From NCBI GenBank assembly GCA_020744425.1, contig JAGMUV010000005.1:2418001-2482000 (forward strand): a stretch of 64,000 nucleotides of DNA, read 5' to 3'. The first letter of the stretch is position 1, and each line of letters begins with the position of its first letter. Below, piece by piece: positions 36,747-39,856 of this stretch. A program made the position numbers and the translations under genes. This DNA is from Dactylonectria macrodidyma (Eukaryota; Ascomycota; Sordariomycetes; Hypocreales; Nectriaceae). The notes beneath the pieces were generated by a model that saw only the letters and a list, made by a program, of their open reading frames with translations, did no database searches and was not told the DNA's origin.

Positions 36747-38750
36747 ATGGCATGCCTCACGAGCACGCCCAAGGGCCTCGAAGCTCTCCTTGAAGAACTT
36801 TCCCTAGATCCTTTGCCCCAGTATGGATCAAATGACGCCCTTACCAAGCCTGTTGAGATATGGAGGTCATATTTTGCAAGGTTTCTTTCCACGGTCCTGG
36901 ATTGCGACGAGGCTGTCATTCAGGAAGCCATCAGCTCCACAACCGAGACCTCCCTTGGTGATTTGGCTCTGATTCTGCCTCGCCTCAAGTTGAAGAATCT
37001 TGACAACAACGGCTTAAAGAGCCTAGCCTTTGAGCTTGGTGAACGGGTTGGTGCCGTCCCATGCCCCCCACATTCAAATCTATCCAGACTAACCTGTATT
37101 TACCAGCTCCCCTCTTCGCCACTTTTCTTGCAACCTTGGGTCGATGGCATCCATCTTCGGATGTTCTTTTCTCCAGATACTCTTCCCCGCCTTCTTCTGC
37201 CTTACATAGGCGACCGGAAATCGCTGTACGGTCACGATTTATCCCAGGGCATCCGGGATCCAGCATCACCAGAGCAAGGAAGGAAGAAGGTCATTGTGGA
37301 GTTCTCTTCTCCAAATGTTGCCACCGATTTTGATAGCAATCATCTTCGAAGCACCCTTCTTGGTGCATTTGTCGCCAACATTCATGAAGCCATGGGATGG
37401 GAAGTTGTACGCCTCAACTACCTCGGTGACTGGGGAAAGCAAATCGGGTTGCTCGCCGCGGGCTATGAGAGGTTCATTGAGAAGGAGAACCTGCAATTTG
37501 ATGGTATTCAACAGCTGAGAGATGTGTACGCAAAGATCAACGAGTTGTTCAAGCCAGAGCAAGATGCAAGAGACAAGGCAAAGCAGGAGAAACAAAACAC
37601 TGCGGATATCGAGGGAAAAGGTATCTTCGCCCAGAGAGATGCGTTTGTCAAAAAGCTCGAGGATGGTGATGAGGCAGCTCTTGCACTTTGGAAACGCTTC
37701 CGAGATATCACGATCGACGAACTCAATCTTGGGTATGGACGTCTTGGAGTGAAGTTCGACGAGTACTGGGGGGAGTCACAGGTGCAGCCCAGTACCATTG
37801 CTGAGGTTGAAAGCACCTTCAAAGAGAAGAGAGTCCTTGAAGAGAGTGATGGGTCGTGGATGATTGACTTCGTCAAGCATGCTGGGAGGAGGGGCCTCGG
37901 TACACAGATTGTTCGAGGCCGTGATGGGTCTACACGGTATTTCCTCCGAGACGTTGCTGGAGCGCTTGACCGCTCACGCAAGTTCACATTCGACAAGATG
38001 ATCTACGTTGTGTCTTCGAGGCAGGACAACCACTTCCAACAGTTGTTTGCGTCGCTCGAGTTGATGGGCCTTTCAGACCTAAGGGAAAAGCTCCAGCACG
38101 TCAATTTCGGAGCGATTCAAGGGCTCGACGGCAGCCTACTCTCCAACATTCTCGACCAGTGCGCAATTCGAATACATGATGCCCTGCGAGAAGAGCATGG
38201 CGACAGTGATATTGACAGCGACAGTGCTGGTGCCGTCAACGATGTGTCTCTGGTTAGCGGATTGCTCGCCCAGGACATGTCGGGTAAGAGAGGACACGGA
38301 TACGCCTTTGAGCCGAAGAAGATAGCGTCATCTACAACACATACCGGCTTGGTCCTACAGGCCTGTCACAAGGTGTTGAACGCCTCGGTTGAAAAGCTGA
38401 GTACCAATGATGTTGAGGTGGCTGAGGCAGACTACACCGCTCTGAGCGATGACGACTCAGCTGACTTGCTCCGGCTTATGGCACAATTCCCGGACGTCGT
38501 TGCAACGACATACAAGTCTTTGGAACCGCACACGCTCCTGAGTTACTTGTATAAACTTGTCAGTTCGTTGTCTATTCTCGGCGAAGGAGAAGAAGATGAC
38601 TTGGAAGGTGATGCCGAGGAAGCTGGCCCTAGTACGGCGCAAGAAACACCCAGTTTGGCAGTGAAGAAAGCGCAGCTTGTCCTATACCAGAATGCAAGGC
38701 AAGTGTTGGAGAATGGGATGAGACTGCTTGGATTTCCAGTTACTTCATAG
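36747..38750 (+). CDS. Arginyl-tRNA synthetase-like protein with lost catalytic motifs
   Basis: An intact single-exon gene of 667 residues, collinear with cytosolic ArgRS over its whole length: N-terminal Add-1-like domain (LGDLALILPRLKLK), Rossmann catalytic domain (VIVEFSSPN, LNYLGDWGKQIGLLAAGYERF, GSTRYFLRDVAGALDR, FDKMIYVVSSRQDNHFQQLF) and DALR anticodon domain (QFPDVV, LYQNARQVLENGMRLLGF). Yet the HIGH motif, normally F-H-A-G-H, reads FDSNH. The KMSKS-like loop, normally GMSTRKG after NFG-x-x-x, is shortened to NFGAIQGLDGSLLSNIL. The tRNA/ATP-site segment usually GDTGPYLQYAH reads THTGLVLQACH. The protein is therefore unlikely to charge tRNA. The open frame argues against simple decay. 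It may bind Arg or tRNA in another role. tRNA-Phe genes lie 0.5 kb downstream. Confidence 0.9.
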   Translation: MACLTSTPKGLEALLEELSLDPLPQYGSNDALTKPVEIWRSYFARFLSTVLDCDEAVIQEAISSTTETSLGDLALILPRLKLKNLDNNGLKSLAFELGERVGAVPCPPHSNLSRLTCIYQLPSSPLFLQPWVDGIHLRMFFSPDTLPRLLLPYIGDRKSLYGHDLSQGIRDPASPEQGRKKVIVEFSSPNVATDFDSNHLRSTLLGAFVANIHEAMGWEVVRLNYLGDWGKQIGLLAAGYERFIEKENLQFDGIQQLRDVYAKINELFKPEQDARDKAKQEKQNTADIEGKGIFAQRDAFVKKLEDGDEAALALWKRFRDITIDELNLGYGRLGVKFDEYWGESQVQPSTIAEVESTFKEKRVLEESDGSWMIDFVKHAGRRGLGTQIVRGRDGSTRYFLRDVAGALDRSRKFTFDKMIYVVSSRQDNHFQQLFASLELMGLSDLREKLQHVNFGAIQGLDGSLLSNILDQCAIRIHDALREEHGDSDIDSDSAGAVNDVSLVSGLLAQDMSGKRGHGYAFEPKKIASSTTHTGLVLQACHKVLNASVEKLSTNDVEVAEADYTALSDDDSADLLRLMAQFPDVVATTYKSLEPHTLLSYLYKLVSSLSILGEGEEDDLEGDAEEAGPSTAQETPSLAVKKAQLVLYQNARQVLENGMRLLGFPVTS

Positions 38751-39280: not shown

Positions 39281-39285
39281 AAAAA
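39281..39285 (-). terminator. Pol III terminator of tRNA-Phe copy 1
   Basis: A run of five T on the transcribed strand about ten bases after the tRNA 3' end, the usual RNA polymerase III stop. Copies 2 and 3 have runs of six T at 39497-39502 and 39714-39719. Confidence 0.8.
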
Positions 39286-39294
39286 GGAATAGAT

Positions 39295-39422
39295 TGCGGT
39301 TTATGTGGATCGAACACATGACCTTCAGATCTTCAGTCTGACGCTCTCTGTCAGTGAAGGTTAGTATTGTGGCTCGATGAATGTGAGAGTGTTGTAACGT
39401 ACCCCAACTGAGCTAAACCCGC
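39295..39422 (-). tRNA. tRNA-Phe(GAA), copy 1, with 55-nt D-loop insert
   Basis: Removing 39348-39402 leaves a 73-nt tRNA: acceptor GCGGGTT/AAACCGC (one 5-68 mismatch), D-stem GCTC/GAGC, anticodon stem TCAGA/TCTGA with loop CTGAAGA (anticodon GAA), T-stem ATGTG/CACAT with loop TTCGATC, and discriminator A. The A box (TAGCTCAGTTGG) and B box are intact. The anticodon loop has no intron at 37/38. Instead a 55-nt insert lies between positions 20 and 21. It begins GTACGT, contains ATACTAAC and ends CTGACAG, exactly the signals of a fungal spliceosomal intron. A T5 terminator follows. Confidence 0.9.
39348..39402 (-). other. Spliceosomal-type intron candidate in tRNA copy 1
   Basis: 55 nt, donor GTACGT, branch-like ACTAAC with its last base 14 nt before the end, acceptor CAG. 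Exact removal restores the D-arm (GTTGGG joined to AGAGC). Its length is within the 48-84 nt range of mRNA introns reconstructed in this window. Excision by the tRNA endonuclease instead is possible but would need a bulge-helix-bulge fold. Confidence 0.65.
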
Positions 39423-39437
39423 TTGGATGAATGAGGC

Positions 39438-39453
39438 AGTCCACATGTGGACT
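39438..39453. repeat. 16-bp palindrome upstream of tRNA copy 1
   Basis: AGTCCACATGTGGACT is a perfect palindrome 16 bp upstream of the tRNA 5' end. It recurs at 39655-39670 upstream of copy 2, as part of the 217-bp duplicated unit, and is absent before copy 3. Confidence 0.8.
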
Positions 39454-39511
39454 ATCTTGCCAGGGTGAAACACACGAGATGAGCAAAACGAAGGACAAAA
39501 AATGAATCGAT

Positions 39512-39639
39512 TGCGGTTTATGTGGATCGAACACATGACCTTCAGATCTTCAGTCTGACGCTCTCTGTCAGTGAAGGTTAGTATTGTGGCTCGATGAATG
39601 TGAGAGTGTTGTAACGTACCCCAACTGAGCTAAACCCGC
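39512..39639 (-). tRNA. tRNA-Phe(GAA), copy 2, with 55-nt D-loop insert
   Basis: Identical to copy 1 over all 128 nt, offset by exactly 217 bp. The insert is 39565-39619 with the same GTACGT, ACTAAC and CAG signals. A T6 terminator lies at 39497-39502. The 89-bp spacers on its two sides are also identical, so copies 1 and 2 arose by recent tandem duplication. Confidence 0.9.
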
Positions 39640-39728
39640 TTGGATGAATGAGGCAGTCCACATGTGGACTATCTTGCCAGGGTGAAACACACGAGATGAG
39701 CAAAACGAAGGACAAAAAATGAATCGAT

Positions 39729-39856
39729 TGCGGTTTATGTGGATCGAACACATGACCTTCAGATCTTCAGTCTGACGCTCTCTGCCAGTGAAGGTTAGTG
39801 ATTTGCTATGAGTGAGGGATTAATGTGATAACATACCCCAACTGAGCTAAACCCGC
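39729..39856 (-). tRNA. tRNA-Phe(GAA), copy 3, with diverged 55-nt D-loop insert
   Basis: The 73 tRNA positions are identical to copies 1 and 2, but the 55-nt insert (39782-39836) matches theirs at only about 35 positions. The matches cluster at the ends: donor GTATGT, branch-like CACTAACC and acceptor CTGGCAG. The middle is unrelated in sequence yet of equal length. The 5' flank also differs. A T6 terminator is at 39714-39719. Confidence 0.9.

Follow-up and report, generated by a model that had tools for sequence, protein, structure and literature searches.

Introduction

According to the established description of nuclear tRNA splicing, the tRNA endonuclease cuts the intron out and a ligase rejoins the exons. 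U6 snRNA is a product of RNA polymerase III (Pol III), the fission yeast U6 gene has its B box placed in an intron, and spliceosomal introns in fungal U6 snRNA genes were reportedly described by Canzler and colleagues in 2016. Passages of a 2017 paper on fungal U3 snoRNA introns (PMC5832005) state that, of the small structured RNAs, just U3 and U6 were known to contain an intron frequently. For tRNA introns at ectopic sites, passages of PMC3978253 describe introns with bulge-helix-bulge motifs and endonuclease cutting in Cyanidioschyzon merolae, and state that many of the introns in the Guillardia theta nucleomorph form no defined motif.

The window discussed here, by which we mean the whole stretch of 64,000 nucleotides that was analysed, comes from a 4,419,252-base contig of the fungus Dactylonectria macrodidyma (Nectriaceae). 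It holds an array of three of the seven tRNA-Phe(GAA) genes that we found in this genome, all of which carry a GT-AG intron of 53-55 nt with a branch motif in the D-loop. We consider it highly probable, judging from the sequence comparisons below, that these introns are removed by the spliceosome and not by the tRNA endonuclease.

The tRNA-Phe array in the window

The three genes lie in tandem on the minus strand, and in each of them a 55-nt insert separates exon 1, of 20 nt, from exon 2, of 53 nt. The features read from the sequence are as follows (A and B boxes are judged by their usual consensus).

39729..39856, minus strand: tRNA-Phe(GAA) gene 1, interrupted; called tRNA-Phe(gaa) by ARAGORN only after excision
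39837..39856, minus strand: exon 1 of gene 1, tRNA positions 1-20
39782..39836, minus strand: intron of gene 1, 55 nt, GTATGT...CACTAAC...GGCAG; sequence, and ARAGORN after excision
39729..39781, minus strand: exon 2 of gene 1, positions 21-73
39838..39849, minus strand: A box of gene 1, TAGCTCAGTTGG, intact, its 3' end one base short of the intron
39740..39750, minus strand: B box of gene 1, TGTTCGATCCA, intact
39714..39719, minus strand: T6 run of gene 1, a Pol III-type terminator
39512..39639, minus strand: tRNA-Phe(GAA) gene 2, interrupted; ARAGORN after excision
39565..39619, minus strand: intron of gene 2, 55 nt, GTACGT...TACTAAC...GACAG; sequence, and ARAGORN after excision
39497..39502, minus strand: T6 run of gene 2, a Pol III-type terminator; downstream sequence the same as for gene 1
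39295..39422, minus strand: tRNA-Phe(GAA) gene 3, interrupted; ARAGORN after excision
39348..39402, minus strand: intron of gene 3, 55 nt, without differences from the gene 2 intron; sequence, and ARAGORN after excision
39281..39285, minus strand: T5 run of gene 3, a Pol III-type terminator

Sequence and ARAGORN thus bear out the preliminary description of this DNA, which had reported three tandem tRNA-Phe(GAA) genes with a 55-nt insert between tRNA positions 20 and 21, beginning GTACGT or GTATGT and ending CAG; the donor is GTACGT in two introns and GTATGT in one, and the acceptor is CAG in all three. The distance given there from the last base of ACTAAC to the end of the insert, 14 nt, has to be corrected, since 12 nt follow that base. 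The same description stated that exact removal leaves a standard 73-nt tRNA with all four stems, which is nearly right. The 73-nt tRNA is indeed recognised by ARAGORN, but the acceptor stem contains a G5-A68 mismatch, which recurs in all seven Phe genes of the genome, including a diverged copy on contig C11. The tRNA may tolerate this mismatch, the mismatch may be corrected, or it may serve as an identity feature.

The T run starts 10 nt downstream of each of the three genes. In the Phe genes the A box lies 5' of the intron and the B box 3' of it, in exon 2, and both are intact by the usual consensus. A run of at least four Ts is likewise found at +6 to +36 after every Phe gene, every initiator tRNA-Met (iMet) gene, every examined Asn gene and the interrupted Cys gene, in a tally in which window genes 1 and 2, with their shared downstream sequence, were entered once. 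An arginyl-tRNA synthetase gene (window 36747-38750) ends about 0.5 kb from the array; a further paralogue of this synthetase, P0112, with 43% identity, is annotated on a contig as long as that of the window.

Interrupted tRNA genes across the genome

The D. macrodidyma genome (77.3 Mb, 77 contigs) was searched with exon patterns allowing up to three mismatches. Seven tRNA-Phe genes were found on four contigs; their 73-nt exons are identical, and all seven have an insert of 53-55 nt at 20/21. A pattern that spans the anticodon and T arms and is indifferent to the insert matched these seven genes and three tRNA-Cys genes. The uninterrupted Phe D-arm had no match in the genome with up to three mismatches, and a search for additional Phe 3' halves, as expected of a gene with a 37/38 intron, returned only the same seven Phe genes and one tRNA-Cys. 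The normal set of tRNA-Phe genes elsewhere that the preliminary description had named among the grounds for considering the array non-functional was looked for genome-wide and not found within three mismatches. These searches used three exon patterns, two of them overlapping, and a strongly diverged gene could escape them. Since the searches yielded no uninterrupted Phe gene, the decoding of Phe codons in the cytosol would require splicing.

In the predicted fold of five of the six distinct Phe precursors, the end of the intron (around ACCTTCACTGAC) pairs with exon 2 near the anticodon arm over 12 bp with a bulge. This pairing is predicted for the window introns at 39348-39402, 39565-39619 and 39782-39836 and for the Phe loci on C1 and C10 and the second one on C45; the diverged C11 copy is without it.

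At least 15 tRNA genes are interrupted in this manner: seven Phe, five iMet, two Asn and one Cys. All totals of interrupted genes are lower bounds, and the tRNA candidates that were scored are the best 63 of 2246. The interrupted genes lie on large contigs (C1, 7.2 Mb; C10, 1.5 Mb; C11, 1.5 Mb; C12, 5.7 Mb; C13, 1.4 Mb; C45, 4.4 Mb; C77, 2.3 Mb). By exon pattern, five of six iMet genes have an intron of 52-57 nt between positions 26 and 27, GTATGT...CTAAC...AG. Two of the five tRNA-Asn genes examined are interrupted at 20a/21, the other three being intact; the second interrupted gene is at the same locus as the first and has the branch site TATAAC. One of the five tRNA-Cys genes examined contains an intron, GTATGT...GACTAAC...TAG, between 24 and 25. 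The Asn and Cys fractions refer to examined genes only, and the iMet, Asn and Cys introns were first met through motif patterns or beside such matches, which makes this sample partly motif-ascertained.

The intact paralogues provide an empty-site test. Once spliced, four of the five iMet sequences match the intact gene exactly and the remaining one deviates from it at one base, while both spliced Asn sequences equal the intact gene of their own isodecoder; six of the seven products are thus exact and one is a single base off. Two of the iMet introns (L079, minus strand, 192-246; L082, plus strand, 1519-1575) hold the B-box-like stretches GGTTCGAAATC and AGTTCGAAAAC directly before the branch site, which might be extra promoter elements or might be due to chance.

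Two U6 snRNA genes were found, and in each of them two GT-AG introns, which contain CTAAC and measure 51-54 nt, interrupt the sequence.

L067, 1356-1560 (contig C34): U6 gene 1
L068, 1358-1560 (contig C56): U6 gene 2

The first intron separates GATAC from AGAGAAGAT and the second separates AGAGAAGAT from TAGCATGG, and the spliced product reads ...GATACAGAGAAGATTAGCATGGCCCC... in this region. U6 intron 1 holds a B-box-like GGTTCGAACC, which in the second U6 gene is TGTTCGAACC; fission yeast U6 has its B box in such a position.

Signals and conservation of the introns

The 15 tRNA introns are 51-57 nt long. Their donors all read GTANGT, with GTRWGT in 12 and GTACGT in three. The branch site is CTAAC in 14 and TATAAC in one (in the longer form ACTAAC in 11, TCTAAC in three and TATAAC in one), and its A lies 10-13 nt from the 3' end, as counted by eye for the Cys and the second Asn intron. 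The acceptor is CAG in ten introns, TAG in one and AAG in four. Section 3.2 of PMC5832005 gives the consensus of fungal U3 introns as GTRWGT, RCTRAC and YAG with a branch distance of 6-36 nt, and states that this consensus conforms to fungal introns generally. The tRNA introns fit the U3 donor in 12 of 15 cases and the branch site, as RCTRAY, at 6-36 nt; the departures from consensus are the three GTACGT donors, the four AAG acceptors and the one TATAAC branch site.

Between gene copies the introns diverge, while GTANGT, CTAAC and AG stay constant. Among the six distinct Phe introns all 12 motif columns are invariant versus 6 of the 43 other columns, and among the five iMet introns the figures are 12 of 12 versus 5 of 45. 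A naive hypergeometric calculation gives 4e-8 for Phe and 9e-9 for iMet, values that are indicative only, the copies being related.

Six annotated mRNA introns of D. macrodidyma, taken from two annotated proteins, are all GT-AG and 48-147 nt long, five of them 48-65 nt. They are looser than the tRNA introns: the donor is GTRWGT in three of the six, and CTRAY occurs at a distance of 9-27 nt from the end in four. The likeness between the tRNA introns and the mRNA introns of the host, as far as these sequences go, is general and not close. Self-splicing introns of group I or II, whose catalytic core takes hundreds of bases, were considered as well and do not fit the length of 51-57 nt; no Rfam family reached its threshold in the window.

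Recovery by excision and controls

The preliminary description had predicted that standard searches would overlook these genes. This is true for ARAGORN, which called none of the Phe genes before excision, whether introns were allowed or not. Exact excision yielded the right tRNA in all 13 interrupted genes that were run through the program; the interrupted Cys gene was recovered as a tRNA in the excise-and-test scan described below, and the second Asn gene was verified by exact match only. When the eight interrupted iMet, Asn and Cys genes were submitted unspliced, two remained uncalled and six were named as another tRNA (loci L032 2690-2819, L079, L085 and L045): one Asn gene became Cys(aca), four of the five iMet genes became Phe(aaa), Val or Asn(att), and Cys became Val(cac), to which the program assigned a 183-nt intron. 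In genomes of this kind, tRNA annotations made automatically may contain wrong calls.

The excise-and-test scan removed GT...branch...AG segments from 96 sequences and applied ARAGORN across the junction. It turned 138 of 773 candidates into tRNAs, figures that include overlapping loci and alternative AGs, compared to 0 of 889 in the reversed sequences. After de-duplication the 138 matches comprise all the introns described above for Phe, iMet and Cys and the one Asn intron that has CTAAC, together with longer variants of some of these that end at a later AG. Three further matches, located where ordinary Thr genes have their 3' end, are spurious. The scan required CTRAY and hence did not pick up the Asn intron with TATAAC.

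A scan for an A box followed by a donor found eight matches for the TAGC form (control four), namely the seven Phe genes and one unrelated sequence, and nine for the TGGC form (control six), namely five iMet genes and four unrelated sequences. Scans for a branch motif before a B box, counted on both strands, did not on the whole rise above noise. With the B box GTTCGA..CC there were 31 matches versus 45 in the backward-pattern control; by eye these are six tRNA-Gln, eleven tRNA-Glu, one U6, one interrupted Asn and 12 unrelated sequences. In the tRNA-Gln genes CTAAC belongs to the exon, and the tRNA-Glu genes have an exonic CTAAC and a normal anticodon-loop intron (two copies checked). Before GTTCAA..CC there were 44 matches versus 40 in the control, none of them tRNA-like by eye. 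B boxes without the preceding G gave 40 matches versus 174, in which the tRNAs were the seven Phe genes and one Cys gene, with one U6 in addition. Such generic B-box scans gauge the spread to other isotypes poorly, and they miss introns that lack CTAAC, as in one Asn gene. A de novo count of mRNA-type intron motifs in the window was at noise level, with seven on both strands, including the three Phe introns, compared to one and four when the two strands were reversed and to 2.8 on average for a shuffled strand. Related sequence was sought in viral contigs and prokaryote genomes, and none was found there.

How are the introns removed?

The preliminary description had left the choice between the spliceosome and endonuclease cutting at an ectopic site; the conserved signals, the empty sites and the like introns in three more tRNAs and in U6 favour the spliceosome. 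The endonuclease has a parallel in C. merolae, for which passages of PMC3978253 report D-loop introns and junctions at 20/21. Six of the seven Phe genes also allow a 4-bp central helix between the end of exon 1 and the end of the intron, in one bulge-helix-bulge register, with two or three of its pairs being G-U, and the C11 Phe intron and an Asn intron reach three of four central and three of four inner pairs. However, when two Phe, two iMet, one Asn and one Cys sequence were scored for the full motif, the outer helix had zero or one of four pairs in all six, in a scoring whose sole positive control, a Glu intron at 37/38, also failed under strict conditions and which is by itself weak evidence against the endonuclease. 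Moreover, conservation sits on the donor, branch site and acceptor, which the enzyme is not known to need, and the insertion sites vary among the tRNAs (20/21, 20a/21, 24/25 and 26/27) and differ from the canonical TSEN site at 37/38. Removal of the inserts by the tRNA endonuclease at ectopic sites thus appears improbable to us. The ordinary tRNA-splicing pathway seems to be alive in D. macrodidyma: ARAGORN, which seeks introns only in the anticodon loop, finds them there in Lys, Glu and Ala genes.

One could also assume that the interrupted genes are non-functional and that diverged, uninterrupted genes missed by the searches supply the tRNAs. The G5-A68 acceptor mismatch in every Phe copy would fit this assumption, as would the search tolerance of three mismatches and the fact that the counts are lower bounds. 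However, the seven Phe genes, spread over four contigs, share the same exons although the introns have diverged, T-runs lie downstream of the genes, three exon patterns uncovered no further Phe gene, and iMet is interrupted in five of six genes whose exons equal those of the intact gene or are one base off. We therefore regard this explanation as very improbable, and we give just as little credence to a third, undescribed nuclear RNA-processing route for short GT-AG inserts in tRNA precursors. In favour of the latter one could cite the AAG acceptors of four of the 15 introns, which deviate from the fungal YAG, but the inserts bear the signals typical of spliceosomal introns in fungi, and the U6 genes of the same genome carry the same kind of intron; extra machinery is unneeded. 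That the interrupted genes reflect an assembly artefact or contamination is extremely improbable: nothing was found that speaks for it, they are spread over several large contigs, and proteins encoded in the window match annotated D. macrodidyma proteins at 100% and 99%.

The spliceosomal reading draws on four observations: donor, branch site and acceptor remain constant in introns whose other parts differ strongly from copy to copy; intact iMet and Asn paralogues show the exact empty site; both U6 genes carry two introns of the same kind; and the signals fit the consensus given for fungal U3 introns in section 3.2 of PMC5832005. Under this reading Pol III would transcribe the interrupted precursor, U1, U2 and the spliceosome would cut out the intron as a lariat, and the joined exons would fold and mature as usual. 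A short transcript that has no cap and a first exon of just 20-25 nt would be an unusual substrate for splicing, although U6 is a precedent. The introns may have been gained separately at 20/21, 24/25 and 26/27. Perhaps they entered the tRNA by reverse splicing, with reverse transcription or gene conversion as the next step, and afterwards spread by gene duplication. Such a route has also been proposed for the U6 introns.

Production of tRNA-Phe and of three other tRNAs likely depends on the mRNA-splicing machinery. On a broader view, it is probable that the nuclear tRNA genes of this fungus have been colonised by spliceosomal introns, which are still being gained and lost, and that the spliceosome acts as a second, parallel tRNA-splicing machine, on which all cytosolic Phe decoding and the majority of the initiator tRNA genes rely. 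As two introns of this kind also interrupt U6, there would be a loop of mutual dependence between splicing, translation initiation and decoding.

Comparison with known systems

If the spliceosome does remove these introns, tRNA splicing and mRNA splicing are not strictly separate processes. The spliceosome would then accept short Pol III transcripts without a cap as normal substrates, and an entire family of essential tRNAs would depend on it. Paralogues with and without the intron, with exact boundaries between them, offer a system in which to watch the gain and loss of spliceosomal introns, a long-standing open question. The failure of a tRNA finder to call these genes, or to name them correctly, suggests that tRNAs "missing" from other fungal genomes merit a second look.

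Like the canonical nuclear tRNA introns, which are located at 37/38 and processed by TSEN and Trl1, the Dactylonectria introns are intervening sequences in nuclear tRNA genes; unlike them, they lie at 20/21, 24/25 or 26/27, carry GT...CTAAC...AG signals and measure 51-57 nt. The ectopic tRNA introns of C. merolae and the Guillardia theta nucleomorph are, in the passages of PMC3978253 that describe them, also located outside the anticodon loop, including in the D-loop. The Dactylonectria introns differ in having spliceosomal signals, and no full bulge-helix-bulge, the motif described for C. merolae, was found in them by a scoring that also failed its positive control. A spliceosomal intron in a nuclear tRNA gene was sought in the literature, and among the matches listed none is described.

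The fungal U6 introns, such as those of S. pombe, are alike in being short GT-AG introns with a branch site in an essential Pol III RNA, whereas the hosts here are tRNAs of at least four isotypes, a class with its own intron pathway. Fungal U3 snoRNA introns have a like donor, branch site and acceptor, and passages of PMC5832005 report that in some genomes intron-bearing and intronless paralogues coexist, as they do here; U3, however, is not a tRNA. What appears to be new in D. macrodidyma is that spliceosomal introns, known from small-RNA genes, would now also be present in tRNAs.
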